From a virus: a stretch of DNA of 53,114 bases. This document shows, piece after piece, positions 27,166 to 53,114 of the stretch; the first letter of the stretch is position 1; every line of letters starts with the position of its first letter. The notes below the pieces were generated by a model. It was not told the DNA's origin and ran no database searches. It saw only the letters and a program-made list of their open reading frames with translations. The translations under genes and the position numbers were made by a program. Location: IMG/VR virus record IMGVR_UViG_3300044673_000235, positions 1 to 53,114 of that record; one strand, given 5' to 3'.

Positions 27166-28575
27166 TTAGAACAAGCCCTCTAGCCGGTTCACCGCTATCT
27201 CGCCGTGACTTTCCTCCAGGTCTACCCCGTAAGTGAACCAGCCTGTCTCAGCTCCCGCACAAAGCGTTGTGCCACTGCCCATGAACGGGTCCAGCAGCAC
27301 GGGCCTTTCGGTCGGGGGCCGGATGAGCTTGGCGAGGTACTTCATGAGGGCTGGGGGCTTGACCGTCGGATGGTTTGATTTACGCACCGTCGCGCCGCAA
27401 ACGACGCACCTTCTTGTCTCTGATGACAACGGCGATGTGGCAGGAACGGCAACGCCCGTACAAGGGCCAACCTTCCGGGGAGATATACCAATGTTCGACG
27501 TCGATGGGGTAAAGGCTTCCGCACAATCGGCAGGGTTTGAACCACACTCCGTCTCGGACTTCACATCCGCTGTGGAGTCGCTTGTGTTCTGCGGCCCCCA
27601 CAAGGCGGAGGTTTTCAATCCGGTTGTCGGTCTTGTCCCCGTTGATGTGATGGAGGCTGAATCCGGGGGGGATTCTACCGTTGGCTCGCTCCCACACGAC
27701 GACGTGCTGGAGTCGGAGGCGTCCGGCGAAGTTCCCTCGCAGGTAGCCTTTGGCGGTGACGTGGCAGCCGTCTGCCCGGGCTGGCTTCGGTCCTCTTTTA
27801 CCCATGCCGACAGCTTAACTGTTTCACAGTCGCACGTCAAGTAGACACTGCGCTCTTTGGTTGGGGCTTTGCCACAGTACAGGAATCGCTGGCCTTCCAA
27901 CTCTTCGGGGGCGAACTCGCACGCCTGGAAGAACCGGGCGGCACTGCCAGAATCGAGCCTCCGAGCCCCCGGGAGGGCGGCAAAGGAGGTGCCCCCGTTC
28001 TCTGTGTAGCGACGGCCGGCCGAAGGCTCGTGCCCCGCCATGCTCTTCAGCTTCGGTCCCTTGCCGACCACTTCACGCTCTGTCCCGGCCGCCTTGTCGA
28101 TGGCCTTGGACACGTCCAGCGATTTCGGGAATCCGCTCCCGTACACCCACATGATCGTGTCACGCAGTTCCCACCCGGCGTCCTCGATGGCACAAGCAAG
28201 CCGATGAAAGGTGCGTGTGCCACCAAAGGCCAAGAGATAGGCGCCGGGCTTCGCTACGCGAAAAGCCTCAACCGCCCATGCCTCGCACCACTCCTGAAAC
28301 GCTCGCATGTCCCTGGCTTGCCGCTTCTGATAATCGGCACAGGCTCTTTGCCGACCCCCCTGCTTCGACGCACCAGTGTTCACGGCATCCATTTGCGGAT
28401 TGCGCCGCATAGCGATGTCGCCCGCCTTGAAGATATCCCACTCCTTCCCCATGAAGCCGAGGCCGTAGGGCGGGTCGGTGAGGATACCGTCAACCGACTC
28501 GGCCTCGAGCGTGGGAAGCACGACGAGGCTGTCGCCATGGTGAATCCGCCCCAAAGGGCTGTCGTAAAAGATCAA
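27166..28575 (-). CDS. DNA adenine/cytosine-N4 methyltransferase, interrupted by a nested HNH gene
   Basis: The product is 469 residues from a TTG at 28575 with an AGGAGA site. Motif IV is TDPPYGLGFMGKEW near residue 33. NHPTVKPPALMKYLAKLIRPP and LLDPFMGSGTTLCAGAE (motif I) near the C-terminus give the IV-then-I order of beta-class amino-methyltransferases. A normal enzyme continues from FLYCGKAPTKER almost directly to NHPTVKP. Here about 150 extra Ser/Thr-rich residues (about 257-403) intervene, and their DNA encodes an HNH protein in another frame. Without that stretch the enzyme would be about 310 residues, the usual size. It may modify phage DNA against host restriction. Confidence 0.8.
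   Translation of the reverse strand: MIFYDSPLGRIHHGDSLVVLPTLEAESVDGILTDPPYGLGFMGKEWDIFKAGDIAMRRNPQMDAVNTGASKQGGRQRACADYQKRQARDMRAFQEWCEAWAVEAFRVAKPGAYLLAFGGTRTFHRLACAIEDAGWELRDTIMWVYGSGFPKSLDVSKAIDKAAGTEREVVGKGPKLKSMAGHEPSAGRRYTENGGTSFAALPGARRLDSGSAARFFQACEFAPEELEGQRFLYCGKAPTKERSVYLTCDCETVKLSAWVKEDRSQPGQTAATSPPKATCEGTSPDASDSSTSSCGSEPTVESPPDSASITSTGTRPTTGLKTSALWGPQNTSDSTADVKSETECGSNPADCAEAFTPSTSNIGISPRKVGPCTGVAVPATSPLSSETRRCVVCGATVRKSNHPTVKPPALMKYLAKLIRPPTERPVLLDPFMGSGTTLCAGAETGWFTYGVDLEESHGEIAVNRLEGLF
27380..27805 (-). CDS. HNH homing endonuclease nested in the methyltransferase gene
   Basis: The product is 141 residues. Core: LQHVVVWERANGRIPPGFSL, HHINGDKTDNRIENLRL and AAEHKRLH, the standard HNH metal finger with catalytic His. 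The C-terminal part is a zinc ribbon (CRLCG and CRSCH about 25 residues apart). It runs on the same strand as the methyltransferase, one base out of frame. A promoter-like sequence ends six bases before the ATG and no Shine-Dalgarno site is present. It probably is a mobile endonuclease that entered at a conserved methyltransferase motif. Confidence 0.85.
   Translation of the reverse strand: MGKRGPKPARADGCHVTAKGYLRGNFAGRLRLQHVVVWERANGRIPPGFSLHHINGDKTDNRIENLRLVGAAEHKRLHSGCEVRDGVWFKPCRLCGSLYPIDVEHWYISPEGWPLYGRCRSCHIAVVIRDKKVRRLRRDGA
27812..27840 (-). promoter_or_regulatory. Promoter of the nested HNH gene, leaderless layout
   Basis: On the minus strand TTGACG (27840-27835), 17 bases, TAAGCT (27817-27812), then six bases to the ATG at 27805. 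Transcription would start at or next to the start codon. The other two nested HNH genes have the same layout. Confidence 0.6.
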
Positions 28576-28588
28576 AGCGTCTCTCCTC

Positions 28589-30607
28589 TCAGGCCTCCAG
28601 CAAGGTTTCGTCGTCGGTGATCCGGGGCTTGCGGGCCAGGTCGCACACGATCCCCAGGACCGGCTTGCCTCTTTCCCCCGGAATTTTCTCCAACCGGTAG
28701 ATCAGGCCGGGCCTCACCCTGGGCTTGTCGAACGCCTCCGCAATCTTGGTCTCAATGGCCTTGCGGCTCATCCCATTGAACTCGTCAAAGTTTGCGATCT
28801 CCTCGGCCAGCCGGTAGAGGGTCCAAGGCTTGTCCGGCATCACGCAGTCCAGAATAGGCTGAACGAAGGCCTCCTGCTTGTCCTCCACCACGAAGTCGAG
28901 CTCGGCCGGCGCGAGGGTGCCTGTCGATTCCGTCGAATCGATCGTCAAGAACACGCTCTGTTTCTCGAACCATCTGCCCTCGCCCATGGGCGGGGCGAGG
29001 TTGGCCTTGGCGTCGTCCAGCCGAACGAACCATTTTGCCCGCTCGGCCGGCACGCCAAAGACCTTGGCCTCCTTCTCGGACATCCCGTAGACCGTGTGGG
29101 CGATGCGGGCGGCCGACATGAGAGCGGAGGCGCCGCGGGCTTCGTTGGCATCCCCGCGGGTCGAGCCGGACTTGGACTTCCGGGTGTGGTGGACCAGCGA
29201 GATCGCGCAGCCGGTGACCTTGGCGATCCGGGTCAGGACCTGCATCAGGAGGTCGATAGCGGTGTTGTCGTTCTCGTCGCACCCGTGGATCCGGACGAAA
29301 GGGTCCAGGATCAGGAGCTTGATCCCGTGGGCCTTGATCTCGTTGATCACGTACTGGATGGCCTTCTCGTTGATGTGGAGCTGGCGGTCCTTCTCGATCA
29401 CGAAGCGAATGGGCTGATCGTGGCCGGACGTGTAGTAGAACTCCTGGGCCTCGGTCTCGGTGATCCGGTGATGGCGCATCGCCGCCATGACCCGGCGCTC
29501 GAGCTCGTCGTAGGGATCCTCCATGTTGTAAAGCCAGACCGGGCAGCGCTTGTGGACTACGTCGTACGTGCATTTGCGACCGCTCGCGATCGAGAGGCCT
29601 TCACAGATTGTGAGGAGGGACTTGCCCACGCCGCCGGGGGCCACGGTGACGGTCAGGAAGCCTGGGAGGTAACGGTAGCCCAGGATCCATTCCCGCGGCT
29701 TGATGTTCGCGATCCGCAAGTCCCCGGCGCTGCGGAGGCTGCCGTTGCGTTTGGCGATGGGTTCGCCAGGGAAGAGGGCGTCAGCCGTCGCGTTGCCGGG
29801 CCGGTCGCGGGCGTAGAACCAGGCGTTACGGACCTTCCGGGCGATCTCCTCGGGAGACCAGGGCGGGCGGGCCTTCGTCTCGTTCCAGTGCTCGAGGAGG
29901 AGTTCCACGGCGCGGTCCTCGGAAAGACCCAGATCCCGGAGGTGCGCGGCCACTTTGAACGTAGTCTGGTCCCCGCCCTGGCCCTCGACCGCCTCGGGCG
30001 CCACATCCTTCAGATAGAGGATCGCCCGGTCGACGTTCTCGGGGAGGTCCAGCTCACAGATCGCCTGGACCCGGTCGGCCCGCTTCACCGGCGCCTCGCC
30101 CAGGCGGTCCAGCACCCATTGCGGGGCCGGCGCCGGCGGGAGGTCGATCCGGAGGTTGTACCGGGCCCGCTGGGCGGTGCGGGATCCTGGGATCAGGACG
30201 TACCCGCCCTCCCCGCGCGTGTCGATGTCCTGACCCAGCTTGTTCGGGGAGTCCGGCCCGGTGTTCGGCCCGACGCCGACGAAGACGAAGTGCCCGCCCC
30301 CGCGGGGGGTGTCGATCGTGAGGGTGTCGGGGAGGATGGGCAGGGTCTCGAGCGTCGGCCAGCCGTCCTTGCCCTTCTCGACGTCCACATCGACGTCGAT
30401 CACGATCAGGCCGGACTTCCCGCAGTCGAGCGCCCAGTTGCAGTTCGCGAATCGCGGATCGGCCGCCCAACGGCGGATCTGGGTTGGGTCGTTGGAGGAA
30501 AGGGCCCGCCACTTGAAGAGGGGGTATGGGTGCTTGCCGAGAGGCTGGATGGGGAAGACGTACCAGCCGCGCTCGGCGTAGGAGAGGGCGGTGTCGAGGG
30601 CGGTCAC
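28589..30607 (-). CDS. Primase-polymerase / RepA-like helicase fusion
   Basis: The product is 672 residues from a GTG at 30607. The N-terminal 200 residues are an archaeo-eukaryotic primase-like Prim-Pol domain: WYVFPIQPLGKHPY, SGLIVIDVDVDVEKGKDG (acidic active-site strand) and TPRGGGHFVFVG. A linker/primase C-terminal domain follows (DRAVELLLEHWNETKA). From about residue 310 a KaiC/RepA-type ATPase has TVTVAPGGVGKSLLT (Walker A near 325) and IKLLILDPFVRIHG (Walker B near 430), then LVHHTRKSK. It would prime and unwind DNA for the polymerase encoded in the other arm. Confidence 0.88.
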   Translation of the reverse strand: MTALDTALSYAERGWYVFPIQPLGKHPYPLFKWRALSSNDPTQIRRWAADPRFANCNWALDCGKSGLIVIDVDVDVEKGKDGWPTLETLPILPDTLTIDTPRGGGHFVFVGVGPNTGPDSPNKLGQDIDTRGEGGYVLIPGSRTAQRARYNLRIDLPPAPAPQWVLDRLGEAPVKRADRVQAICELDLPENVDRAILYLKDVAPEAVEGQGGDQTTFKVAAHLRDLGLSEDRAVELLLEHWNETKARPPWSPEEIARKVRNAWFYARDRPGNATADALFPGEPIAKRNGSLRSAGDLRIANIKPREWILGYRYLPGFLTVTVAPGGVGKSLLTICEGLSIASGRKCTYDVVHKRCPVWLYNMEDPYDELERRVMAAMRHHRITETEAQEFYYTSGHDQPIRFVIEKDRQLHINEKAIQYVINEIKAHGIKLLILDPFVRIHGCDENDNTAIDLLMQVLTRIAKVTGCAISLVHHTRKSKSGSTRGDANEARGASALMSAARIAHTVYGMSEKEAKVFGVPAERAKWFVRLDDAKANLAPPMGEGRWFEKQSVFLTIDSTESTGTLAPAELDFVVEDKQEAFVQPILDCVMPDKPWTLYRLAEEIANFDEFNGMSRKAIETKIAEAFDKPRVRPGLIYRLEKIPGERGKPVLGIVCDLARKPRITDDETLLEA

Positions 30608-30825
30608 GGGAGCACCTCGAACTCATCGGGCGCCAGGCCGAAAGGCGCCGGCCAGCTATCCGTTCTGGCCCAGTACCCCTCTTTTGTTCCGTGCCCGGTG
30701 ATGATTCCGCGCTCCCCTGCACAAGCAAACATGACCCACGGGTGAGCTTCGTTTGGCGCTTCTTCTAAGGTCTTCAGGAAACGAATCCTCGTTCCGACAG
30801 GGGGCACACCTCCCGGCGCGTTCAT
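30604..30825 (-). CDS. Small hypothetical protein
   Basis: The product is 73 residues (MNAPGGVPPVGTRIRFLKTL onward), with an SH3-like beta pattern (GTRIRFL, GERGIITGH, DEFEVLP). The ATG at 30825 overlaps the repressor stop by four bases; its stop overlaps the primase GTG. Role unknown. Confidence 0.6.
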   Translation of the reverse strand: MNAPGGVPPVGTRIRFLKTLEEAPNEAHPWVMFACAGERGIITGHGTKEGYWARTDSWPAPFGLAPDEFEVLP

Positions 30826-31025
30826 GCGAGCCTCTGGAACTTCAGGAACTTCGACGCCGGGCACTCGGCCAACCCGACCTCGTATTTCGCGACGGCGCCT
30901 CGCGTCGTCGTGAGGGTCTTCGGGGAGGTGGCGTTGTAGAGCTCCGCGAGTTCCTCCTGGGTGATACCGCGAGCGCGGCGGATCTCCTTGATGGTGGCAG
31001 CGATCAGCTTCCGGTAGTGGGTCAC
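30822..31025 (-). CDS. XRE-family repressor (Cro/CI-like HTH)
   Basis: The product is 67 residues from a GTG at 31025, six bases after AAAGGAGG. It is nearly all HTH: IKEIRRARGITQEELAELYN, then TTTRGAVAKYEVGLAECP as the second helix-turn-helix half. It has no C-terminal cleavage domain, so it is Cro-like in size. It is the first gene of the leftward arm, facing the rightward early promoter. It may control both arms through the 17-bp palindrome over its own promoter and/or the GTTAG sites. Confidence 0.8.
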   Translation of the reverse strand: MTHYRKLIAATIKEIRRARGITQEELAELYNATSPKTLTTTRGAVAKYEVGLAECPASKFLKFQRLA

Positions 31026-31047
31026 GGGTCTCCTCCTTTCGCCGGTC

Positions 31048-31082
31048 AACCTACCAAGGCACCCGTGTTCTTGTCAAGAACA
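31048..31082 (-). promoter_or_regulatory. Leftward promoter overlapped by a 17-bp palindrome
   Basis: On the minus strand TTGACA (31077-31072) is 18 bases from TAGGTT (31053-31048), 22 bases before the repressor GTG. A perfect 17-bp palindrome, TGTTCTTGTCAAGAACA (31066-31082), covers the minus-35. It is a good candidate operator for self-control by the repressor. Confidence 0.65.
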
Positions 31083-31149
31083 GAAAAAACCGGTGATTTT
31101 TCCCCGCCAGAAAAGCATCCGAGGTCAAAAAATAGTTTGGTCAGGGGTA

Positions 31150-31198
31150 TTGACAGGGCCGAAGCGGGCGGGTAATGTAGGGTGCGTTAGCGGCTAAC
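31150..31198 (+). promoter_or_regulatory. Main rightward early promoter with GTTAG operator
   Basis: TTGACA (31150-31155), 17 bases and TAATGT (31173-31178) form a near-consensus sigma-70 type promoter. Immediately downstream, GTTAGCGGCTAAC (31186-31198) is a perfect 13-bp palindrome centred near the transcription start, an ideal position for repression. The first early gene begins at 31224. Confidence 0.78.
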
Positions 31199-31223
31199 AC
31201 AACCTGAGAGAAGGAGACGAGAG

Positions 31224-31424
31224 ATGGCGACGACCAAGCAGAAAGAGATCGCGAAGCTCGAGCGGCTGGAAAACAAGGCCCTCTACGAGGGCACGATGCC
31301 CACCTTCCGCGCCGCCTGCCACCAAGCCCGCGAGGTCGGATACGTTCCGGGGCGGAAAGGCTTCGCCTCTCACGTCGACTGGCTCCTGACCGCGAGCCGC
31401 CAGGGTGTCCTGGTTCTCGGGTAA
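31224..31424 (+). CDS. First rightward early protein, hypothetical
   Basis: The product is 66 residues: MATTKQKEIAKLERLENKAL, then YEGTMPTFRAACHQAREVGY and SHVDWLLTASRQGVLVLG. Basic and helical in its first half. AAGGAGA precedes the ATG. Being first under the early promoter it may take over or inhibit host functions, but no family is recognised. Confidence 0.65.
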   Translation: MATTKQKEIAKLERLENKALYEGTMPTFRAACHQAREVGYVPGRKGFASHVDWLLTASRQGVLVLG

Positions 31425-31520
31425 ACCTTCGGGGATGGCGCGGCCCGCCACGGGCGTGCTGAGAGGAAGATCTCGACGCCGTTGAGGCCACCCGTCCCCT
31501 TCTCTTGAAAGGAGCCTTCG

Positions 31521-31810: not shown

Positions 31811-31938
31811 AGCAGGCCTACGACACCTGGCACCGGCTTTTCGCCCTGTACTTGTCGCAGGGTTTCTCCCGCAACGCCGCGGCCCGGCGCGCGGAGGAGG
31901 TCCTGGACGCGCAACTTAGAAGGAGGAGAACACCATGA
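31795..31938 (+). CDS. Very small early protein
   Basis: The product is 47 residues: MDPTVKQAYDTWHRLFALYL, then SQGFSRNAAARRAEEVLDAQ and an Arg-rich end. GAGGAG lies eight bases before the ATG at 31795, which overlaps the preceding gene, and the TGA overlaps the next ATG. It looks like one small helical domain. Confidence 0.65.
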   Translation: MDPTVKQAYDTWHRLFALYLSQGFSRNAAARRAEEVLDAQLRRRRTP

Positions 31939-32183: not shown

Positions 32184-32200
32184 TGAAGGAGGACCATGTC

Positions 32201-34516: not shown

Positions 34517-34532
34517 GGAAGGAGGACGAGCG

Positions 34533-35664: not shown

Positions 35665-35667
35665 TCC

Positions 35668-39242: not shown

Positions 39243-40195
39243 CCCGAACCACGGCGGATCTTCGGGCCCTGCAGAGCCTCCCCCACGAGACGAAGATCGA
39301 GTGGGCGAGGGAAAAGATCCGCGAGGCCCAGGATCGCTGCTGGCTCCTGGGCCTGGACCTCTGCGTGAGCGTGGCCGGGAAGGACTCCCGCGCGCTCCTC
39401 CACCTCGTCCGATCCCTCTACCCCGAGACGAAAGCCTGCTTCGTGGACACCGGGCTGGAGTACCCGGAGGTCCGCGCCCTAGCTCGCGCCACGCCAAACT
39501 GCGATATCATCAAGCCGAAGATGCGCTTCCCCGACGTGGTGGCGAAGTACGGCTGGCCGGTCACGACGAAGAAGCAAGCGAAGTACGTGCGCGAGCTGCA
39601 GACTTCCAAATCGGCCTATTTGATCTTGGTACGCAGAACGGGTTTTACTAAGGCCGGGTCCTTTCTGAGCATGAGACAATGCTCTGCAAAATGGATACGA
39701 CTGTTTGTTGACACGGAAAAGCCAATAGCTATATCAGAAAAGTGTTGCGAAGTAATGAAGAAAGACCCCATCCACAGATACTCTAAAAACAAATACCTTC
39801 AGGTTATTGGGGTCATGACTGACAACTCAAAGCAGAGAGAGCATTCTTGGGTTACTTACGGATGCAACGCTTTCGATCAGAAGAACCCAACCTCTCGCCC
39901 GCTGATGATATGGACAGAGCAGGATGTGCTGCGCTACATCAGAGACAACGAGGTGGAGATCCCGTCAGTGTACGGGGAGATCATCGGGGAGTACGGGACT
40001 CTTGCCACAACTGGCTGTACCAACACAGGTTGTGTCTTCTGCGGTTTTGGAGTTCATCTAGAGAGGGGCTTGAATCGCTTTCAGCGTCTTGCAGACACAC
40101 ATCCGAAGCTCTGGAAGTATGTGCTGTTTCGCCTCGGGATGGCGAAGGTGCTAGATCACATGGGCGTCAACTACTACCCGGAGTGGCTCTCATGA
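39239..40195 (+). CDS. PAPS reductase-like (adenine-nucleotide alpha-hydrolase fold) protein
   Basis: The product is 318 residues. WLLGLDLCVSVAGKDSRALL near residue 40 is the SGGKDS-type PP-loop. KACFVDTGLEYPEVRAL, then GWPVTTKKQAKYVRELQ and SRPLMIWTEQDVLRYI follow family order. TTGCTNTGCVFCGFGVHLER near residue 265 is a Cys cluster suited to zinc or an iron-sulfur cluster. Phage members are common, with roles unclear, some tied to DNA thiolation or sulfur use. GC falls sharply from about 39600 to 40200, roughly the C-terminal two thirds, suggesting recombination within the gene. Confidence 0.85.
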   Translation: MTRTTADLRALQSLPHETKIEWAREKIREAQDRCWLLGLDLCVSVAGKDSRALLHLVRSLYPETKACFVDTGLEYPEVRALARATPNCDIIKPKMRFPDVVAKYGWPVTTKKQAKYVRELQTSKSAYLILVRRTGFTKAGSFLSMRQCSAKWIRLFVDTEKPIAISEKCCEVMKKDPIHRYSKNKYLQVIGVMTDNSKQREHSWVTYGCNAFDQKNPTSRPLMIWTEQDVLRYIRDNEVEIPSVYGEIIGEYGTLATTGCTNTGCVFCGFGVHLERGLNRFQRLADTHPKLWKYVLFRLGMAKVLDHMGVNYYPEWLS

Positions 40196-42444
40196 GGCTT
40201 GTGATTGACTTCGAAACCCGGAGCGCCTGCAATCTCAAGACCGCAGGCCCGGCAAAGTACGCCGCCCACCCTACAACGCAGGTCATCTGCCTAGGTGTCA
40301 AGGTGGACGACGAGCCTGCCCGGCTCTGGTGGGCCCCCTGGGTGCCACACTTTACCCCAGGAGAGCCCAGCTTTAAAATCTGGATAAACCACCCGGAGTC
40401 TTCCAGCCACTTCGTTGGAACCCCAGAAGATCTTGCTCTGGATGGTTGTCTATGTGAAGTTGGCCCAGCTCTGTTGGGCACAGAGGCAGAATACAACAGG
40501 CTTAACCCACTTATTGATGACGAACTTCGATCATTCGTCCAACAAGCAGATCTGATCGAAGCCCACAATTTCGAGTTTGAACGCGCGATCTGGCATCAGC
40601 TCATGGTCGCGAAGTACGCGTTCCCCCCGCTCGACCTTGCCCGATGCTCCTGCACGGCCGCCCGCGCCGCAGTCCACGGGCTCCCCCGGAAGCTCGAGGA
40701 TGCCTGCAACGTCCTGGGCCTGCACGTCCGCAAGGACATGCTGGGCCACGCCTTGATGATGAAGCTTTGCAAGCCCAGGACGGCCCGCAAGGACGAAGAT
40801 CCAAACGTCCTGCACTGGCGCGAGGACCCCGAGGAATTCCGGCGCCTGGGCGCCTACTGCCTAGACGACGTCGAGGCCGAGGCGGCCCTGTCGAAGGCCC
40901 TGCGGCCCCTCTCTGCCTCGGAGCAGGAGGTCTGGCGCGTCGACCAGGAGATCAACGCCCGCGGCGTGTGCGTCGACCTGCCGGCCGTCCGCTCGATCAT
41001 CGAGACACTCTACACCCACGAGGATGGGCTCCTGGCCGAGATGGTCGAGCTGACCGATGGGAGGGTCGCCTCACCCCGGCAGGTGGCTTCGCTTCGCGAC
41101 TGGCTCGCGGCCCGCGGGGTGCCCACCGAGAACCTCCAGAAGGGCACGGTCAACGATCTGTTGGCGAACGGCGTGATGCCCGAGGTGCGGCGGGTCCTGG
41201 AGATCCGCCAAGCGCTCGGCCGGGCGAGCACCGGGAAGTTCACGGCCATGGCCCAGCGGGCCGACGCCGACCACCGGTGCCGATCGCTCTTCCTGTACAA
41301 TGGGGCTGGCACGGGCCGTTGGGGCGGGAAGGCGATCCAGCCGCAGAACCTACCGCGGGACTCCTACTCGGGTCAGATGCTGGACGTGACGCTGGATCTT
41401 TTCAAAGACCACAACATTGAAGGCCTGGCCCTCCTGATCGATGAGCCCTTCGCCGCGGCCTCCCGCTGCGTGCGTGGGGTCCTCACGGCCGGCCCGGGGA
41501 AGGACCTCGTCTGCGCGGACTACTCCTCGATCGAGGCGCGAGCGAACGCTTGGCTCGCCGGGCAGGATGACGTCGTGGAGGAGTTCCGTGCCGGCCGGGA
41601 CCTCTACAAGGTCGAGGCGGCCGGGACCTTCGGGTGTGGCTACGAGGAGGTCTCCAAGGCCCAGCGGCAGGTCGGCAAGGTCGAGATCCTGAGCCTGGGC
41701 TACGGTGGGGGCATCGCCGCCTTCGCCGCGATGGCGGGCAATTACGGGATCGACCTCGAGACCCTGCCGGCCCTCGTCTTCCCCGGGGCGAACTCGGATG
41801 AGCGGGAGCAGGCTCTTCGTACGGCCGCGGGCTTCTTGCAGCGAAACCCTGCAGCGATGAGCACAGACGCCGCGATGGCGTGCGACATCATCAAGCAGAA
41901 GTGGCGGGCAAAGAACACCCGGATCGTCCGCTTCTGGGCCGCCCTGGGCGAGGCGGCCTCGAGCGCCGTCGAGAGCCCCGGCAAGGTCTTCAGCTACCGG
42001 AAGGTCTCGTTTCGAACGTGGAAGGACCCTGTCGGCAACAACTACCTCGTCTGCCGGCTGCCCAGCGGTCGGTACCTCTACTACTTCGGCCCGAAGATCC
42101 GCGCCATGAAGACCCCCTGGGGCGACCTGAAGGACGTACTGACCTACCACGGGGTCGACGGCGTGACCCGGCGGTGGGTGATCCAGAAGGCGCCGGGGTT
42201 CCTGCTCTGCGAAAACATCGTCCAGGCCGCCTGCCGGGACCTCCTGGCCGACGCCATGGTGCGCGTCGAGGCCGCGGGCTACCCGGTTGTCCTCCACGTC
42301 CACGACGAGCTTGTGAGCGAGGTGGACGAGGACTTCGGCAGCCTGGAGGCGTACGAGAAGCTCATGGCCGCGAGCCCGGAGTGGGCTCGTGGCTTGCCCG
42401 TGCAGGCAGTGGGCTGGCGCGGGAAGAGGTACAGGAAGGAATAG
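40192..42444 (+). CDS. Family A DNA polymerase with 3-prime exonuclease
   Basis: The product is 750 residues from ATG 40192 (overlaps the previous stop). Exonuclease motifs: LVIDFETRSACNL (residue 4), DLIEAHNFEFERAIW (about 120), and YCLDDVEAEAAL (about 225). Polymerase motifs: A VCADYSSIEARANAWLAG (about 442), B RQVGKVEILSLGYGGG (about 497) and C VLHVHDELVSEV (about 703). All catalytic acids are present. It should copy the phage genome with the Prim-Pol/helicase protein encoded in the opposite arm. Bases about 40350-40560, between exonuclease motifs I and II, are lower in GC. Confidence 0.95.
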   Translation: MRLVIDFETRSACNLKTAGPAKYAAHPTTQVICLGVKVDDEPARLWWAPWVPHFTPGEPSFKIWINHPESSSHFVGTPEDLALDGCLCEVGPALLGTEAEYNRLNPLIDDELRSFVQQADLIEAHNFEFERAIWHQLMVAKYAFPPLDLARCSCTAARAAVHGLPRKLEDACNVLGLHVRKDMLGHALMMKLCKPRTARKDEDPNVLHWREDPEEFRRLGAYCLDDVEAEAALSKALRPLSASEQEVWRVDQEINARGVCVDLPAVRSIIETLYTHEDGLLAEMVELTDGRVASPRQVASLRDWLAARGVPTENLQKGTVNDLLANGVMPEVRRVLEIRQALGRASTGKFTAMAQRADADHRCRSLFLYNGAGTGRWGGKAIQPQNLPRDSYSGQMLDVTLDLFKDHNIEGLALLIDEPFAAASRCVRGVLTAGPGKDLVCADYSSIEARANAWLAGQDDVVEEFRAGRDLYKVEAAGTFGCGYEEVSKAQRQVGKVEILSLGYGGGIAAFAAMAGNYGIDLETLPALVFPGANSDEREQALRTAAGFLQRNPAAMSTDAAMACDIIKQKWRAKNTRIVRFWAALGEAASSAVESPGKVFSYRKVSFRTWKDPVGNNYLVCRLPSGRYLYYFGPKIRAMKTPWGDLKDVLTYHGVDGVTRRWVIQKAPGFLLCENIVQAACRDLLADAMVRVEAAGYPVVLHVHDELVSEVDEDFGSLEAYEKLMAASPEWARGLPVQAVGWRGKRYRKE

Positions 42445-42633: not shown

Positions 42634-44506
42634 TCCCGTATTCCGCGATGGCTTCCCACATGATGGGCTGGTCGGGAGCAGCGTTCCCATCGTCCAGGTT
42701 GAAGGTCACGTCGAAGCCGGTCATCGTCCGATTCGTGACAAAGCAAACCGTGCGGGCCAGCGTGGGCGTTACCTGGACGACAGCCGGGACGGAGCCCAGG
42801 CCGTGAAGGACCGTCGTTCCCGAGGTGATCGTGCCCGTGGCCCCGCTGGTTCGCTTCTTCGCAGTGATCGTACCCGTCGCGTCGGCCGTGTCGATGTCCA
42901 TGTCGTACTTGGTCTTGTCAATCTGCAGACCGAAGCATCCAGCGCCCGCTTTGATCGAGAAATCCGTCGTGTTGCTTACCCGGCCGCCGATCAGGTTGGG
43001 CTGGGTGGCGTTCAGGACCTGGATCCCGTAGGAGGCCCCGCCCACCACGACGGGGCGCACAATCTCCAGCCCGTTGATCGGGGCGGGGAACCAGTTGGAT
43101 CCCTCGCAGTAGATCGCGGCGTTCGTGGGCCCGGCCGCCCCGGCGTAGGAGGAGCAATCCACCAGGTGGACATTGGTTGGCGTGCCCTCCTGATCCCCTA
43201 CGATCATGTAGCTGTAGTTCTTCGCGTTGATGACCGTGTTGCCTATAGCCTTCAGGTTGCGGAAGTTCCCGGAGAAGCCGAAACCATTTCTTCGGATCTG
43301 TGCGGGGTCTGGATCGACCGGGTGGTCAATCACGTTCTCTACGGTATTCCACGCGAATAAGTTGCTGTCGCAGCAAGGCTGCGCATCAGACTCTCCGCGG
43401 GAGTACATCGTGAAGACTTCGTTGTAACAGTCCACCACGTAGTTGGCTAGAACCTTGTTGTGAGAGGCTCCTGCACTCAGATACACAAAATGTCGACCGA
43501 TACGGGTGCCTTGGCATCGCTGGATGATGTTACGGAGACCGCCATCGCAGAGGATCGCGTACCCGCCAAAGTCCGTGCCGCCGTCCACACACAGGATGTC
43601 GGAGAAGTCGCATCTGTCTACGAGGTTGTTGTTGCCTTCGATCTGGATGCCGTACCGTGTGTTGGAGATCCCGAGGGAAAGCGCCTGGCATCCAAGGCTG
43701 CCCCCGTAGAAATGAACCGCCCGTTCCACCCCGGTGGTGATTCCTGAACCGGAAATCCGGAAGCCTTGGAGTCGGACGTAGGACTTCCCGTTGACCTTGA
43801 AAGCATCGACGTTGGCTTGCCCGATCTGGACGGTAATCCCCGGATGAAGGCCCTGCACTGCGGTGAATGAATCCGGATAGACGGGGCTGTCCAGAACGAA
43901 ACTCGTCGTCAGGAGGACCGTCCCGCCGCCGGCGCTCGTGGCCGCGGCGAGGGCAAGCCCAAGAGCGGTCGTCCAAGAGTTCCCTGCGGTCTTGTAATCC
44001 CGGATATCGAAGACCGCGGGCGTTGTCTGGCTGGGCGCCGGGGTGAGGGAAGTGAGTACCTGATTCACCAGTTGACCATCACCATCCCACCCCAAGATGG
44101 CTCCCGGTTGAGACGCCAGGGGGTAGGGCCGAGAAGCCCCCACCCAACCAGGCAAGTCTAGACGCCGGGCCGTGAGGTCTTGCACCATGGCCGTGAGCTT
44201 GTCCACCTGGGAGTTCAAGGCCTCGACCGAGAGAGGCCCGGACGTCGTCAGGTCGGAGGACCGGGACTGCTCTACCTTCCGGAGGAGCGTCACCAGGACC
44301 CCGGCCGCCGGCGCCGTGGTGAAGGCCACTGTCCCGCCAGACAGGAGCCCCGGCGTAAACGTCACCGAATAGGCGGTCCCCGGCATCAGAGACGAGCCTT
44401 GGTAGACCTCGAGTTCTGTTGCCTGCCAGATGGGCCAGGGGAAGGCATAGGATGCAGCCTCGACCGAGGTGTACTGGATCCGGGGCACGAGCTCGGTGAC
44501 GCTCAT
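42626..44506 (-). CDS. Tailspike with right-handed beta-helix
   Basis: The product is 626 residues. The N-terminus ([40 protein letters not shown]) is the podovirus fibre attachment domain, as at the start of T7 gp17. A coiled-coil linker (SVEALNSQVDKLTAMVQDL) follows. From about residue 190 beta-helix rungs appear (VFDIRDYKTAGNSWTTAL, GYAILCDGGLRNIIQRC, YGIQIEGNNNLVDRCDFS), typical of pectate-lyase-like depolymerases. The end is a compact beta domain. ATG 44506 follows GGAGG by five bases. It likely binds and cuts host polysaccharide. GC is lower near 43300-43500. Confidence 0.8.
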   Translation of the reverse strand: MSVTELVPRIQYTSVEAASYAFPWPIWQATELEVYQGSSLMPGTAYSVTFTPGLLSGGTVAFTTAPAAGVLVTLLRKVEQSRSSDLTTSGPLSVEALNSQVDKLTAMVQDLTARRLDLPGWVGASRPYPLASQPGAILGWDGDGQLVNQVLTSLTPAPSQTTPAVFDIRDYKTAGNSWTTALGLALAAATSAGGGTVLLTTSFVLDSPVYPDSFTAVQGLHPGITVQIGQANVDAFKVNGKSYVRLQGFRISGSGITTGVERAVHFYGGSLGCQALSLGISNTRYGIQIEGNNNLVDRCDFSDILCVDGGTDFGGYAILCDGGLRNIIQRCQGTRIGRHFVYLSAGASHNKVLANYVVDCYNEVFTMYSRGESDAQPCCDSNLFAWNTVENVIDHPVDPDPAQIRRNGFGFSGNFRNLKAIGNTVINAKNYSYMIVGDQEGTPTNVHLVDCSSYAGAAGPTNAAIYCEGSNWFPAPINGLEIVRPVVVGGASYGIQVLNATQPNLIGGRVSNTTDFSIKAGAGCFGLQIDKTKYDMDIDTADATGTITAKKRTSGATGTITSGTTVLHGLGSVPAVVQVTPTLARTVCFVTNRTMTGFDVTFNLDDGNAAPDQPIMWEAIAEYGSD

Positions 44507-47500
44507 CGGTTCCTCCGTGTTCCGGGGGGAGCCCCCAGGAAGGTGTTCAAAACCATGTTGGGCGTGATCTCGTCGCTGGCGATCCCGTCCAGGACCGCGG
44601 TCGATGTTTTCCAGATCTGGCCGGACGGGAGGCCCAGCCAGTACCCGCTCACGTCGAGGACGTCCTTCGGCTTGATCTCGCCCAGCCAATCCGGGTCATC
44701 CTCGATCCACTTGTCCGTCGCCTTGGAGGCCTCATGGAGAAGCTGGAGCGAGGCCTCGATGGGCCGGGAGGCTGGGGTCATCTCGTACTCGACCTTCCCG
44801 TACCGCATGCGGGTGAACGCGTTCACGGCATCCCGGACTCCAGGGACCATGCCGGGGAAGAGGAGGGCCGTGTCGCGCGTGGCCTTCTTCGCCGCGAACT
44901 TCTTCCAGGACTCCTTGTCCTCGTCGCCGTCCGGTCGCCGGTAACGCCCGCGGAGGACTTCGGCCAGGATCGCCGGCATGAGGACCGTCGAGACGAAGAC
45001 GCCCATCACGCCCCAGTTGGACAGCTTCCCGCGGGCGCGTAGGGCTTTGGCGTCCATCAGGAGGTTGGACAGCTTGTTCATCCAGCCGAAGAACATCGTG
45101 AAGAGCCGGGCGAGCGGGTGACCGGGGCGCATGACGTGGGCCATGTCCTGCACCTTGCCCGTGCCGATGGTCCTGCGGACCTCCATGTCGGCGTAGCGCA
45201 CGGCCTTCTCGTCGTCCCCATTGAAGGTGTCCAGACCCTTCTGGTAGGCCCCCAGCCAGCCGACGGTGGCGACATGGGCCTCGACCATCCCGGCGAAACC
45301 GAAGAGGTGGAGGCGATCCCGCTTCTTCCCGGCCAGGGACTTCTTCGTGGCATCCAGGACGTCTCGGTTCCAGTTGTCTTTGATCTCCCGCAGGACCGCA
45401 GACTTCGCCAGGGCGGCCTCGAGGGTAGCGCTGCGGTTCTCCTCATTCATCCCCGCCCAGAAGGCCTTGGCCCCCTTTGCGAGGTAGAAGGGCCCGATCG
45501 ACGTGGGCGAGGTGAAGAGCGAGAAGTCCGCGAGCGCGTCCATCCCGATCGCGAGGTTCCAGCCCATCGCGACCGTCACAAGCCCGGCCCGGCTGTGGAG
45601 GAAGAAGCTCTCCCAGAAGGCCAGCGTATGGGAGTCGCGGTAGTCGTTCGCGACGTCGTGGACCCACTGCTTGACCTCCTTGAACATCGGCTCCCCGCCG
45701 ACGTTGTGGATCGCCCGGATGATGTCCTTCTGCGCGAGGAGCTTGTTCGCGTCCCGTACGGGGAGCCGATAGGCGATGTCGTGCGAGACGTTATCCAGGT
45801 GCTGCCAGAGGACGGAGAGGTCGAGGAGGGGTTGCTGCCCGCCTCCGAACTGCTGACGTCGCTCCGTGTGCCCCTTCCGGGTCGAGGCGCTGAGAGCGTT
45901 CCCACCCATCGCTTCTTGCAGGGTCTTCTTCGCGTCCAGCTTCGCCGTCCGGCTGCCGGCCGCCGGGTCTCCAAAGACGTTCGATCCTTGGTGGGGATTG
46001 TACGTGATTGGGTAGTACCCGCCGGCGAACTCCTCCCCGTGAAATGTGATGGGTTGGGCGACGACCTTCTCGGGCTTGACCCCGGTCGCTTTCTCGTGAA
46101 CTTGCTCGATGTGAGGCCAGAAGAGGTTGATTGCATCCCAGCAAGCCTGGACGAAGCGGAGCTCCTCCAGGGAGAGGGTCTTCTCGATGACGTGGACGAT
46201 GTCTTCGCGCGTCCAGCCTTCGAAGCCCTCCTCCATCCGGGAGATGTTCAGCTCGTTGCCCATGTTCAAGGCCATGCAAAGCACCTCTACCTTCGACAGG
46301 GTCGCGCCGCCCAGCTCAGGGTAGCTCTGCTTCTTGTACCAAGGACTCAAGACGACCTCGGCGCCCTGCTCCCCGGCCAGCCGCCGCAGCGCTCCCAGGG
46401 CGAAGACATCGGTCCCCTGCTTGCCCAGACGCTCGACCGCCGCGGCCTCGATCGCCTCCACGACGGGCTTCAGGACATCGGCCTTTGTGGCCGACGCCTG
46501 GGCGAAGGGCTCGATGAAGTGGGTGAGCCAGGGGCCCAGGGGCGTGCCCCCGTCCATCTGGGTGTAGAAGAAGTTCTCGATGCGCCGCAGGTAGGAGATC
46601 CCCTTCAGGAGGCCCCCCGGCTTCGCCCCTGGGCTCGTAGACTTTTTCTGCTTGGGCTGGCGGTCGGCCACCTCGACGCAGGCATCCACGACCGCCTGGA
46701 CCGCCGCCCGCTTCTCCCCTGCGAGGAGCTGGCCTTCGGCCCGGCCGATGTGCTCCAGGCTTTTCACGGCATCCACGTAAGCCTGGAAGAGGTCGACCGG
46801 CATCTGCCGGGGGTCAGGGGCCCCGGTGCGCCCGCGGGGGTTCGTTGCCGTCCAAGGCTGGAAGAGCCGGGGATCGATGTCCGGCATGTCCAGGGCATCG
46901 TTCTCGGGGTTCGCGTTATGGAGCTCGCGCTCGTGCAGCCAGGTTGCGAGCTTCGTCAGGTCCTCCGGGGTCGCCCCCGGCGCGAAGCCCCCGGCCCGGA
47001 GGAGCATCATGATCTGGTCCCGGTACTCCTGGGGGACGCTCTTCGGGGTGGATGCGTCGAACTTGCCCAGGTACTTCTCGCCCGCAGCGGCTTCGTCCCG
47101 AACCCGGATCGCCTCCAGAACCATCGCGTGGGCGAGGGCCTCGTTTCGCATCCAGACGAGAGCGTCGGCGGTCTTCCCGGCTGCCTGCAGCGAAGTGGCT
47201 TTCTTCCGGGCTCGGAGCTCCTGCGCGGAGAAGCGGGAGAAGGCAGAGGCCTCGGCCACGGGCAGCGTGGACAGCTTCTGCCGGGCGACCTCCCGCAGGG
47301 CCTTCGCGCGGATCCCCGCGGCCCGCAGCTTCTCGGGCTGGCCCTGCTTGGCTTGCACCAGGGCGATCGTCTCGAGGAGGAGCTTCAGCCGCTCGTCGTT
47401 GTGCCAGTCCTCGTCGGCCGGGACGGCGGCCGGGTCCTGCGTAGCCCGCAGGATGTCGGCTTCGGCCTGCTTCGTCAGCTCAACCACCCGCTCCTTGATG

Positions 47501-50500
47501 TAGCTGGCCTTCGCCGGCGCGGCGAGCATCTGGGCGACCATCTCGGCGGGCGTGGCGAACCCGTGGGCGGCGGCTACCGTCTCGGGGGCCTGCCCGCCCT
47601 CCAGCGACACGAGGCCCGGCCGGCGCTTGGACAGGGCCTTGCGCTGCTCCTCCCCCACGAGCCAGTCCAGGTCGGAGGCCGCGAGGCCCTGCCCGGCGGC
47701 GAGCTCGTCCATGGCCCGGTAGACCGGGTTCGCGTCGAGCTCCTGCTTCGCCTGGGCCGCGAACTCGGCCTTCCCGCCCAGGGCTTTGACGTAGGCAGCC
47801 AGGAGCCGGGACTCGCGGGTCCGGCGGGTCTGGGACTTCGCCTTCTCCCGGCGCTCCTGGAGGCGCTTCTGCTCGTCTTCTGTGAGCTTCCAGGCGGCGG
47901 TGAGGTCGCCCTTCAGCTCGTCGTAGGTCGTGTGGTACGCCTCGGCTTCCGCGATCTGGGCGTCAGAAGCCAACATGCGGTCGAAGATCCCCTTGATCTC
48001 GGGGTTCATGTCGACGTGCAGGTTCGCGACGTACCGGTAGACCGTCAGGAGCCAGGCCTTGAACTGGTCGAAGACGCCGACGAGCTCCACCGACGGAGCC
48101 TTGCCTTCGAAGAGGTAGGCTTCGAAGGACCGGGCGAACGTCTCGTGCTGTGCATCCGTGAAGGCCTGACCCTCAGCCGCGCCCAGGTGGGCCCGGATCT
48201 TCGCCAGTTCGTCCTTCAGGGATTGCGGTGCTTCGGGGTCGGCCGCCGCCTGGGTGTACTCCTCCAAGAAGAGGTGGCCCAGCTCGTGGATCAGGGTGCT
48301 CTTGTTGGCGGTCTCGAACAGCTTGATCACGGTCCCGGCGTTGCCGAAGGTGATGGCGCCGCGGGCTTCGTTCTGGCGGTTCTGGAAGAGGCTGAACCCC
48401 CGATTCAGCGCCGCCTCCTTCAGGGCCGGGGTGACGTCGAAGGCGGGGACCTTGGTTCCGCGAGCCTCAACGAGCGGTTCTCCTGTCTGCCTCCGAATAG
48501 AATTCTCAGCCTTGACGCGCTTGGATTCTTGCGCTTCTGCGAGTGTCGTCTCCCCCACCTTCACCCCATACTGCTTCGTGAGACGTGACACGGCAGCGGG
48601 GACGATCTTGTCGTAAAAGCCCTTCATGCCCTCGCCGCCGACCTTGAGGTCAAGGCCTTCCAGCGATCGACGCCGCACGCCAATCCCCGCGCTCTGACCG
48701 GCCACAGGCTGGGCTTCCAGAAGCTTTTGCGCCGCCTCCTTGCCGATGTAGTTCTCGATGTCAGCCGGGTTTCGGACGTACTGATCCAACACTTTATCCC
48801 CGGAAAGACCCCAGGCGGTGAGCGTCCCCCGCGAAGGCTCGCCTTCCAGCTTTGGTCGGCCCATCCCGCCGGTAGAGTTGTCCTCGTAGGTGATCCTGCT
48901 GATTTGCTTGCTCAGGTCGTACCGTTCCGCCTGCATCTCGCCCGGCGTCCACGCTACGCGGTCGTAACCCTCTTCGGCGGCCATGCGCAGGATGCGCTTC
49001 AGGGCGAGATCCACCCAGCCGCCGCGGTCGGTACCCTTGAAGGGGGCGTCGGGGACACCTTCAAAGACGCCTGGAACTTCTCTGATGGTGGAGGCTTCTC
49101 GGTCCACGAAGACAGGGGCGTTTTTCAGGTACTCCTCTGCCTCGGCCTTCGTCTCAAACTGTCCTCGCTGATTCCCGTTTTGGTCAATGACGGTGAACGC
49201 CGCAGGAGGGGTGCCGTACCCCTTTTTTCTCCCCTGCTGGTGCATATCCGATTGTATTTCTTCGATGAGTAGGATACGCTGTGTCTTATGCGAGCCCCCA
49301 ACGTCGAGTGCGCCTGGTGCCACACCCCCCTGTATCGGGAGCCTAACCGCCTCCGAAGATCGTCCCGCTTCTTCTGCAACAAGGCGTGCGGTGGAGCGTA
49401 CAAACACGGTCGCAGCGGCGGGTTCGCTGAACCGTACCGCCGCTTTCGGATCGCCGGAAAGAGCGTGCGAGAGCATCGCTTTGTCGCTGAGAAATTGCTC
49501 GGGCGTAAGCTCGGCTCGAACGAGCTGGTCCATCACATCGACGGGAATCAGCGGAACAATGCCCCGGAGAACCTTCGGATCACGAGCCGCGCTGAACACG
49601 CCCGCCTCCACGGCCTTTCGGTCTTCGACTTGAAGACCGCGCAAGCCCTCCGCCTGGAAGGCCGGACTTTCAACGAGATCGGTAAGCACTTTGGCCTGTG
49701 CGGCGAGACGATCCGCTCCCGCTTTGCCAGCCTGGGCTTGCACCGTGTCAGGCACCACAGCCGTAAAGTCCTGAAGCCTGACGTGGGCTAGCACTCCCGG
49801 TTCGTCCCAGTGCCCGCCACGGTACTCGTTACCCGGCAGCGTCAGCAGCACCTCCCGGTAGTTCTCGCCGCCGGGGGTCTTGTAGGCGCCGAATTTGGTG
49901 TTCGTCGCGGTGCCAAAGTCCTCTTCGGGCGACAGAAAGCCAAGTGCCGCTGCGACGTTTCTGGCCTCTTCTTCGGTAGCAAAGAACTCCTGCTCATCTT
50001 CATCAAATAGAGGGTCTACGCTTCCGTTGCTGTGCTCGAATTCCGCATACCACCCGTTTAGGTTTTCCCCTGTTCGGTACGTCCCCGCGGCAAGGCTTAT
50101 CGCTTCGCTGCCTTGCTTGCCGTCCGCGCGTGGTTTCCAGGGGATACCTAACCCTTCTCCCTTTCTCACCTCCTCCACCCGCACCTCATTCGCCGCGAGG
50201 TGCGCCTGCACCTCCCCCTTCGTCATCAAAGCCGCCGGGTCCAGCCCGGCCATGCGCCATTCGATCTCAGCCTTCGGGACCTGCTTGCCCTCCAGGAACT
50301 TCAGCCAGTCGCTGACCTTCGCCTTGGCCGGGCCCTTCTGCGCGGCCTCATCCAGCTTGGAGTACCAGATGGGGGCCTGCTTGTATGTCTTCCCCTCAGA
50401 GGGATAGCGAACCACCACATCTCCGGCCACGATTCCGTCGAACCCCTGGGCGCGAACGAACTCCGCAGGATCCGCAAACTTCGTGTTGAACTCGCGTGCG

Positions 50501-53114
50501 TTCTTGAGCCCCGACGTCTCCAGAGCCCAGTCCATGAAGGCGTCCCTGGAGCGCAAGACCAGGGGGTTTCGGGGGTAGGCGACCAGCGGATCGACCTCGG
50601 TAGCCTTCCCGTACTCGGCCGCGAGCTTCTTCGTCGTGGTGCTGTAGAGGCCCTTGCCCAGCATGAAGACCCCGGAACCCTGTCCGGGAGCGCTTTCCCC
50701 TCGGTAGAGCTTCTTCGGGGCACCTTTCGGCAGCGGCATATCCGTCGGGAAAGGGTCGGTCTGGAAGAGAGTCTTCCCCCCGGCGCCCGTCTCGACCGCC
50801 TCCCGGTAGAACTGAGCGAGCGCCGCCTGCCGGTTGGTTTCGTTGAAATCCTTGGCCTTCCTTGCCGTGTTGGACGCGGCTCTCGCTTCCTTCTCCAAAG
50901 ATTGAAGGACTGGCACCTCGGCCTCGGTGAGGGTCGGTCCAAGCTGATCCGCCAGGACCGAGAGGTTCCTGGTGTTGACCGCGTTCTCTGCGAGGGCGGT
51001 GAAGTCCTCGAAGGTACGGGCGACCGGGGTCTGCTCCAAGGTGCCTTTGTTGAAACCCTTGACATCAGAGATAAAACGCAGTACGCTCGGCCCATGAACC
51101 GACACCGACAAGTACCCCTCGTCTGCACCGGCTGTGGCATCACCTTTTTTCGCTCCAGCCAGTGGACTTCCAAGCATTTCACCGGAAGTACTCGGCCGTT
51201 CTGTAGTCATTCCTGCTACGGAATCAGCAAGAGGCAAGGCTTTGTTGACGCTATCGGCTATGTGGACAAAAAAGGCTATCGCTTCATCCGTGTGGGTGGA
51301 AAGAAAGTCGCGGAGCATCGTTTCGTCGCGGAGCAAACTCTCGGGCGAAAACTGTTGCCCTTTGAGACTGTCCACCATGTCAACGGGGAGCGCCTCGACA
51401 ACAGACCGGAGAATCTTCTGGTCATGTCCAAAGCTCAACACACTATTGAGCACTACCCGCTGCATTGGTGCATCGAGACCGCTAAAACCTTGAGAGCGGA
51501 AGGCTGGACCTACAAGCAACTGGCGCAAAAGTTCGGCGTTACCACGCAAGCCATTTTCAGTGCTTTCAGGACTCGCAGTCTCACCCGAAAGTGCCGCCAA
51601 AAGAGCGTTGGACCGGAAAACCCGTAGAGGCTTCCCCTCGTCGTTCAGCACCAGCTTCCCGGTCTGGTCGTACTGCGCGTCCCCCGGCGCCGCCGTCTCC
51701 CCGGCCACGCCCTGGATCTGCAGCTTCCTCCTCGCCCACGCCTGCTCCGGGTCGAGCCCGTGCCGCTCGCCCAGCGTCGTGTAGAAGGCGCTCGTCAGGG
51801 CTGCGGCCTTGCTCGCCTCGGACTTGCTGACGCCCGCGCCTTCTGCCATCGCCTGGAAGTCGGCGAAGATCCTCGTCGCCGGGGTGTCCTGCTTCTCCGT
51901 CGCGGCGGCCAGGACCTCGGCGGCGCGGGCGTGGAGCTCGGGGTCGGAGATGAGCTGCTTCATCTCGCGAGATTCTCGGGGCGTCGGGATGTCGAGGCTG
52001 ACCGTCACGTCGTCCACGAGAGCCATTCCCATGGCCTTCCCGGCGATGTGGGTCGTCCAGGCCTCCATGGGGATGGCGACGTACCCATCGTTCTCACCAG
52101 ACTTCGCGAGCGAGTCAGAGAAGCCGGGGATCACTGCATCGATCTGCGCCGGGGTGGTGTTTCGCTCCTGGAGGAACGTCTGGACCGCCTCGGCGTCGGC
52201 GTAGACCATGGGCGGGGCGCCGTTCTTCACGGCCGCCTCGGCCAGCTTCTGAATCGTCTCGGGGGACCGGGCCCTCGTCTCACTGTCCTTCGTGGCGTCG
52301 TTCAACGCCCGGAAGACCTGCTGCTGGTGCTCCGACTGCTTGATCCGGATCGCGCCCTCCGCAATCATCCCGACGGAGACAGGGCCGCCGAAGGCGAGAC
52401 CGCCAAGCAAACCCCCATATCCCGACTGGAAGTTCAGCCCCCACTCGGCTGACGTCAACGGGTCGAAGTATCCCCCGCCGGTCGCCTTGTGGGTGACCAT
52501 CGTCTGGAGATGCTGCTGCGTGAACTCCTCCGCATAGTTCCCCATGCCGGCAATCGCGAGAGGTGTGGCCGCCTTGGCGAGCACTCCCTTGATCGTGGGC
52601 TTGGCGAGCGCCTCCATGACCTCTTTCCCGCCGGCAAGGGACAGGAGCCGTTTCATGGTCTGACCGCCAAGGGCAAACACGCCCCCGGCGGCAACGTCAC
52701 CCAGTCCTTCCACTGAGGCCGCCGCCATCCCGTAGAGGTCGGCATACTTGAGGGCCTTCTCCCAGGGGACACCGCGCTGCAGGAGGTCCGGGAAGGCCCC
52801 CGCCGCCTCGTACTCCCGGCTGGCCTTCCACTTCTCCATCTCACCCCCGAGGAGGGCCCCGGTCCCGGCCGCCGGCAGGGCGAGGGGCGCGCCGGCGCCT
52901 GTCGCCAGCGTGCCCAGGCCGAAGAGGAGCCCACCCTTGGCCGCGCCGACGGCGCCCCGCCCCCACCCCGCGCCCATCATGGGAAGCGGCTCCACCGTGC
53001 TCGAGAGGACCTCGGAGGCGCGACGCTCGAGCCAGGTCCGAGGACTGTCCTGAAGCTTCTGCTGTTCGGCCTCATGCTTCTGGATCTTTTCGTAGACCTG
53101 TGCTTGGGTGGCCG
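44503..53114 (-). CDS. Giant polyvalent internal virion protein, main part (N-terminus at 1-803)
   Basis: Numbering for the joined 3082-residue protein. A Gly/Ala hydrophobic stretch lies near 255-300. An ADP-ribosyltransferase-like domain lies at about 1010-1130 ([36 protein letters not shown]). [20 protein letters not shown] is near 1495 and [20 protein letters not shown] follows; both are conserved in phage polyvalent proteins. A zincin site, [14 protein letters not shown], is near 1823. Long helical regions follow, and the C-terminus has [16 protein letters not shown] and a hydrophobic segment. Residues about 709-886 and 1321-1488 are encoded opposite two HNH genes and resemble each other. 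Such proteins enter the host with the DNA. Confidence 0.85.
49252..49280 (+). promoter_or_regulatory. Promoter of the first antisense HNH gene, leaderless layout
   Basis: TTGTAT (49252-49257), 17 bases and TACGCT (49275-49280) end seven bases before the ATG at 49288. On the other strand the same DNA encodes [11 protein letters not shown] using unusually AT-rich codons. Confidence 0.55.
49288..49791 (+). CDS. HNH homing endonuclease antisense within the giant virion gene (copy 1)
   Basis: The product is 167 residues. An N-terminal zinc finger ([10 protein letters not shown] and [10 protein letters not shown]) is followed by the HNH core ([42 protein letters not shown]) and a C-terminal HTH ([20 protein letters not shown]). 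It lies between virion-protein codons for VLAHVR and LLIEEIQSD, a junction that other polyvalent proteins have nearly adjacent. It runs opposite to all surrounding genes. No ribosome-binding site is evident. Confidence 0.88.
   Translation: MRAPNVECAWCHTPLYREPNRLRRSSRFFCNKACGGAYKHGRSGGFAEPYRRFRIAGKSVREHRFVAEKLLGRKLGSNELVHHIDGNQRNNAPENLRITSRAEHARLHGLSVFDLKTAQALRLEGRTFNEIGKHFGLCGETIRSRFASLGLHRVRHHSRKVLKPDVG
51059..51087 (+). promoter_or_regulatory. Promoter of the second antisense HNH gene, leaderless layout
   Basis: TTGACA (51059-51064), 17 bases and TACGCT (51082-51087) end six bases before the ATG at 51094. The minus-10 hexamer is identical to the one before copy 1. Confidence 0.62.
51094..51627 (+). 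CDS. HNH homing endonuclease antisense within the giant virion gene (copy 2)
   Basis: The product is 177 residues. Zinc finger ([20 protein letters not shown]), a beta element ([17 protein letters not shown]), HNH core ([47 protein letters not shown]) and C-terminal HTH ([20 protein letters not shown]). Same architecture as copy 1, so they are paralogues, but not near-identical. Upstream codons in the same frame belong to the antisense shadow of the virion gene; the ATG at 51094 fits the domain start. Confidence 0.88.
52949..53114. repeat. Terminal redundancy of the contig, right copy
   Basis: Second copy of bases 1-166 with the two differences noted for the left copy. Both differences lie within the first 40 bases of the left end, where read support at a contig edge is often weakest. 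Confidence 0.93.

Follow-up and report, generated by a model that had tools for sequence, protein, structure and literature searches.

Three HNH genes in a viral genome are likely to be transcribed from promoters of their own, whose −10 boxes end 6–7 nt before the ATG, and to be translated from leaderless mRNAs. The genes, named HNH1, HNH2 and HNH3 here, lie in a 53,114-base IMG/VR virus record with a GC content of 64%, which was analysed over its whole length and is referred to as the window. Each gene matched the Pfam family HNH_3 (64.9, 41.5 and 39.4 bits, respectively, for a cut-off of 24.8) and kept the invariant H/N residues of the HH...N...H motif in alignments. A preliminary description of this DNA had reported their coordinates, a promoter-like pair of boxes before each gene with 17 bases between the boxes and 6, 7 and 6 nt to the ATG, and their location inside larger open reading frames (ORFs); all of this was reproduced.

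Features of the window that bear on the three HNH genes (positions in the 53,114-base record)
Feature	Position	Strand	Evidence
HNH1, HNH_3 endonuclease gene, 141 aa, out of frame in methylase ORF	27380..27805	-	Pfam PF13392, E=5e-18
-35-like box TTGACG of HNH1	27835..27840	-	sequence
-10-like box TAAGCT of HNH1, end 6 nt before ATG	27812..27817	-	sequence; score 9.7
N6/N4 DNA methylase ORF, open through HNH1	27166..28575	-	phrog_67, PF01555
HNH2, HNH_3 gene, 167 aa, antisense in giant ORF	49288..49791	+	Pfam, E=1e-10
-35-like box TTGTAT of HNH2, antisense of conserved host motif IEEIQSD	49252..49257	+	sequence, homolog comparison
-10-like box TACGCT of HNH2, end 7 nt before ATG, inside conserved host codons	49275..49280	+	
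Approximate HNH2 insert, aa 1077-1238 of 2830-aa ORF	49282..49767		protein comparison with L332, L333
HNH3, HNH_3 gene, 177 aa, antisense in giant ORF	51094..51627	+	Pfam, E=5e-10
-35-like box TTGACA of HNH3	51059..51064	+	sequence
-10-like box TACGCT of HNH3, end 6 nt before ATG	51082..51087	+	score 11.4
Giant phage protein ORF, 2830 aa (8.5 kb), open through HNH2 and HNH3	44503..52995	-	phrog_9880

The portal, head-tail and giant-protein genes of the window matched podovirus-like PHROG families. The search for DNA sequences closely related to this phage gave none; the insertion borders therefore come from protein comparison alone, and those of HNH1 and HNH3 are approximate. Searching every stop-to-stop ORF of the window with phmmer yielded no fourth HNH gene of the HNH_3 family, Rfam families including introns gave no match in the window, and ARAGORN found nothing there that would point to a tRNA explanation. 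The PHROG alignments of the DNA polymerase ORF (39847–42444, plus strand) and the terminase ORF (19949–21475, minus strand) were approximately 190 and 120 residues longer, respectively, than the profile positions matched, and these ORFs may possibly hold further insertions.

We assessed the promoter layout against all starts of the window. The pattern TTGNNN-17-TANNNT occurred 10 times anywhere in the window, and it ended 6–7 nt upstream of 3 of 1,096 ATGs and 3 of 3,822 ATG, GTG or TTG codons on both strands, which in both cases were those of HNH1, HNH2 and HNH3. Among the 1,096 ATGs, HNH3 ranked first, HNH1 second and HNH2 fourth by promoter score; the weight matrix is of the E. coli type and may not fit the host of this phage. 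None of the 19 other likely genes of the window had a TANNNT 5–8 nt before a candidate start. The three HNH genes lacked a Shine–Dalgarno (SD) site, as had been claimed, but the accompanying statement that nearly all other genes have one was too strong, because a rough check in which internal starts were permitted found one in 13 of the 19 likely genes. From a sigma70 promoter whose −10 box ends 6 nt before an ATG, transcription would be expected to start approximately 7 nt downstream, on the A of the ATG.

We next consider related genes, for which a set of 162 non-redundant HNH_3 genes was compiled from viral contigs and bacterial genomes, the genes of the window included. Strong promoters (score of at least 8) were counted at every distance d of 0–40 nt from an in-frame ATG; the start taken was the best of all in-frame ATGs, and controls were handled likewise. 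There were 23 strong promoters at d = 6 and 3 at d = 7, with 1 in total at d = 0–5 and 1 at d = 8; the shared ancestry of HNH genes leaves these counts partly dependent on one another even once redundancy was removed. Control ORFs from the same contigs, which include spurious ORFs, had 2/926 at d = 6 and no peak (OR 76, Fisher p=5e-18). Similarly, the −10 box alone was present in 35/162 HNH_3 genes and 15/926 controls (p=1e-19). In a later scan, 6 of 22 further non-redundant HNH genes had the promoter at d = 6 and none at d = 0–5, 7 or 8. The proposal that related HNH genes carry the layout more often than control sequence was thus borne out, and about one related phage HNH gene in six is preceded by the layout. 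A 4-base SD motif between −20 and −4 was found in 0/32 leaderless-type genes and in 94/144 other HNH genes, where the former count is lowered by the −10 box occupying part of the region and the latter is raised by allowing any in-frame start. The sequence pattern of leaderless genes, a −10 box that ends 6–7 nt before the start without an SD site, was seen in the window as well as in the HNH_3 set.

The leaderless layout was present in contigs of 31–68% GC, including L304 from a Burkholderiales metagenome-assembled genome (MAG; 7 nt) and L329 from a Candidatus Dependentiae MAG. A second, lower rise of promoter counts was noticed near d = 30 in the HNH_3 set (8 genes at d = 30), which suggests a class with short SD leaders such as that of L015, described below. 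The perfect consensus TTGACA-17-TATAAT-6-ATG had at least 84 matches in viral contigs, mostly before unrelated genes, and no HNH_3 gene was recognised among the 84 matches listed. At two possible GIY-YIG endonuclease genes, L108 11608–11943 and L116 1185–1505, a promoter of perfect consensus ends 6 nt ahead of the ATG; of the two, L108 alone has a Pfam match, which is below the curated cut-off.

HNH1 is an HNH ORF placed out of frame in a methylase gene whose own frame stays open, which is the pattern of a hidden insertion. Translation of the methylase frame through HNH1 gave only methylase-type Pfam families and weak sub-threshold matches, and Rfam and Pfam recognised no intron or intein in this gene. 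The closest HNH1 relative found, L015, is 48% identical and occupies the corresponding methylase site. Its promoter, TTTACG-17-TATAAT, is similar to that of HNH1, and ACTGTGAA is common to both, the homology of the two promoters being judged by eye. Unlike at HNH1 with its leaderless layout, the L015 promoter is followed by a leader of approximately 25 nt with AGGAGG; it therefore seems that one kind of element exists in both forms. Among the plasmid and phage methylases compared, none offered an empty counterpart of the HNH1 site that has this cysteine-rich loop. The codons of the HNH1 promoter stretch were not significantly rare (17% of windows of host codons were as rare).

HNH2 and HNH3 are antisense to a giant ORF whose product is a distant relative of Bbp10 of Bordetella phage BPP-1. 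No LPD or ART-PolyVal Pfam domains were detected in this 2830-aa ORF, and we do not class it as a polyvalent-protein gene. As a direct IMG/VR search for relatives of the giant gene with empty sites was negative, the comparison relied on distant homologs from phages. In these homologs the HNH2 site is empty, with 5–6 residues between the host motifs in L332 (two copies) and approximately 50 in L333, and HNH2 is the only one of the three genes for which insertion relative to empty homologs was observed. The conserved host motif starts at the HNH2 promoter, both boxes are antisense to conserved codons, and the last HNH2 codons run over conserved host sequence. The boxes use the rare host synonyms ATA, CTA, CAA and CGT (0.3% of host 10-codon windows were as rare), and they are absent at three homologous empty sites. 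As the boxes lie in conserved host codons, the HNH2 promoter belongs to the target side and not to the insert. The rare-codon test was moderate for HNH3 (2.8% of windows).

The preliminary description had viewed the three genes as a mobile cassette that carries its own promoter and can be expressed wherever and in whichever orientation it lands. For one lineage this holds. In L016, L018 and L019, the sequence from about −38 to the ATG is 84–92% identical, as is the gene itself, blastn homology starts approximately 40–60 nt before the ATG, and beyond this the upstream flanks are no more alike than the random baseline, indicating that the promoter moved with the gene; the conserved unit extends into the downstream C5-methylase gene. 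The HNH1 promoter probably travels with its gene as well. The idea failed for HNH2, since that copy did not bring along a promoter that is written in conserved host codons. The supposed tie between the layout and nesting was not upheld either, because most leaderless HNH genes sit between genes and several nested relatives carry SD-like sites. Nor is the orientation free, given the frame constraint of the antisense-nested genes described below.

Several arrangements of methylase and HNH genes were seen in passing. A C5 cytosine methylase ORF (Pfam DNA_methylase) of L016 overlaps a long ORF in another frame (3140–4609 and 3213–4583), and L018, L019 and L023 have related ORFs that overlap likewise. 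A methylase gene in L004 (approximately 200–3200) appears to hold up to three HNH-like insertions, two of which leave the host frame open, and a 664-aa ORF of L020 (2297–4288) appears to contain two HNH genes in another frame. In L338, a Thermus thermophilus plasmid (1–1416), a TnpB gene sits immediately upstream of a short methylase ORF and may interrupt it.

The relatives of HNH2 and HNH3 have in common a zinc-binding N-terminus and a C-terminal helix-turn-helix-like part. In this clade the ATG stands just before an invariant CxxC zinc-binding motif, and it is for this reason a plausible true start. Ten relatives are antisense in large ORFs, namely L224 (at least 2151 aa), L225, L226, L227, L229, L231, L032, L247, L304 and L233; a later viral scan gave mostly contigs already in the set and yielded no independent replication of the clade. 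Several of the interrupted genes encode LPD1, LPD5, LPD22, LPD37, LPD38 or ART-PolyVal domains. By such LPD, ART-PolyVal or similar domains, 5 of 6 large ORFs scanned were polyvalent-protein genes, and no domain of the LPD/ART-PolyVal type was found in the large ORF of L233. The leaderless layout is present in about half of the antisense-clade genes; SD-like sites precede the nested genes of L224 and L227 and, less clearly, probably those of L225 and L247. Nesting and the leaderless layout are therefore associated yet separate features.

All antisense-nested genes examined (12/12) are in the codon-aligned antisense frame. With this alignment, only TTA, CTA and TCA codons of the HNH gene place stops in the interrupted frame, and none of these codons was present across the 12 genes, whereas approximately 61 were expected from host-gene codon usage. 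The product of the zero probabilities over the 12 genes was 7e-32, a value that overstates the significance because nested members are recognised by their open host frame. As a control within the same genes, 0/227 Leu4/Ser4 codons ended in A, compared with 11% of other fourfold codons (P=2e-12). In single members with 42–51% GC, 7–13 TTA, CTA or TCA codons were expected and none was seen, which is hard to explain by chance. By avoiding these three codons, the interrupted frame stays open. We give roughly even weight to the view that an HNH lineage has adapted to antisense life in essential-looking giant phage genes, through avoidance of the three codons, use of one codon-aligned frame and partly leaderless promoters that can be written into conserved codons of the host gene, and that such an element, rather than being spliced out, would lengthen the host protein by a segment.

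Our favoured model is as follows. HNH1, HNH2 and HNH3 would be free-standing HNH_3 genes for endonucleases of the homing type, inserted without an intron or intein. A host-type RNA polymerase would transcribe each gene from its own promoter, and the RNA, presumably beginning at the start codon, would be translated as a leaderless mRNA. HNH expression would thereby be independent of the transcript, frame or orientation of the interrupted gene. As each insert is a multiple of three without a stop in the host frame, the interrupted gene could still be read, and its protein might be made, and perhaps work, with an extra segment of roughly 150–190 residues. Counting against this model, some relatives at similar sites have SD leaders (L015, L224 and L227), and across viral contigs in general the perfect consensus at 6 nt does not single out HNH genes among the matches listed.

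Translation of hidden HNH genes from the larger transcript has been assumed previously (PMC11855218), and the boxes would be incidental if internal initiation on the transcript of the interrupted gene were used or if the genes were not translated at all. HNH1 is in the sense orientation, in which internal initiation is possible; however, the transcript of the interrupted gene cannot encode HNH2, HNH3 or their ten relatives, which are antisense, and the sharp 6-nt peak is missing from other ORFs of the same contigs, so that we regard this explanation as improbable. A somewhat stronger case, although still an unlikely one in our judgement, can be made for leaderless starts as a habit of hosts such as Actinobacteria and Deinococcota, where HNH genes would show them because, unlike genes in operons, they need a promoter of their own. 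In Deinococcus-Thermus, genes often have a −10 motif adjoining the ORF (PMC12340547), many mycobacterial genes are leaderless, and the leaderless HNH locus L271 is near-identical to its match in a Streptomyces genome (L308). The layout nevertheless extends beyond leaderless-prone phyla, as the range of GC content and the Burkholderiales and Candidatus Dependentiae cases indicate; moreover, where an HNH gene has a promoter in the 40 nt upstream, its position is predominantly 6 nt, whereas controls with promoters show no peak.

Another explanation would be a group I intron or an intein that is spliced out, with the endonuclease inside, and HNH genes are indeed often found in introns. We consider this highly improbable: the window has no Rfam match, HNH2 and HNH3 run on the strand opposite to the gene they interrupt, the endonuclease frame differs from that of the interrupted protein as it would not in an intein, and the interrupted frames stay open, which is needless for a spliced intron. 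The open frames might be a chance by-product of high GC and not of selection. Within the window alone this is not far-fetched, as the chance of an open frame is 0.12–0.24 for HNH1 and 0.35–0.63 for each of HNH2 and HNH3. However, relatives at 42–55% GC also lack TTA, CTA and TCA although 3–13 were expected in each, and A-ending Leu and Ser codons are scarcer than A-ending codons of the other fourfold families in these genes; thus, we give this reading little credence.

The ShiLan domain and further HNH insertions that are hidden out of frame in DNA methylases of phages were described by Arsenault, Gosselin and Gogarten in 2025 (PMC11855218), who asked how these genes are translated and suggested initiation on the host transcript without a ribosome-binding site (RBS). 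As in the present case, their HNH genes are in another frame of the methylase, the host frame has no stops, and intron or intein features are missing; HNH1, L015 and L294 are of the same kind. In that report the word promoter does not occur and antisense cases are not included, whereas here an ATG-abutting promoter was counted and antisense nesting with codon avoidance was found. In Mycobacterium phage Bipolar (L219 1490–1510), GGAGG lies 4 nt before the GTG of a ShiLan-type HNH gene, which differs from the statement in that report that no RBS was detectable. In the open-access journal papers searched, we found neither the promoter layout of HNH genes nor the antisense variant described. The hidden out-of-frame methylase HNH genes were already published; the promoter signature and the antisense variant appear to be new. 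A promoter that ends exactly 6 nt ahead of the ATG would answer the published question of expression in a concrete way, and it covers antisense copies too. It implies that such selfish genes need neither the transcription programme of the phage nor an SD site, and the antisense, stop-avoiding variant would be a way for a mobile gene to occupy coding sequence with no need of splicing. Such genes will probably escape annotation pipelines, and the giant proteins that are called around them may include segments of endonuclease origin.

Polyvalent proteins (PMC5512222) supply domains that recur in several interrupted genes of the relatives; that study does not mention homing or insertion and names HNH once, in another context. 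The seg and mob genes of T4 (PMC2988022) are likewise free-standing endonuclease genes expressed within the neighbourhood of another gene. Seven of these are promoter-less cassettes that rely on upstream phage promoters and others use middle or late promoters, while T4 intron-encoded endonucleases have SD sites and the review gives no leaderless case. Closest in layout are genes of Deinococcus-Thermus (PMC12340547) and mycobacteria (PMC3898074), which likewise have a TANNNT a few nucleotides before the start, no leader and no RBS. Those are host genes of particular phyla, whereas the layout described here belongs to one mobile gene family in phages of varied GC content and, where known, varied hosts.
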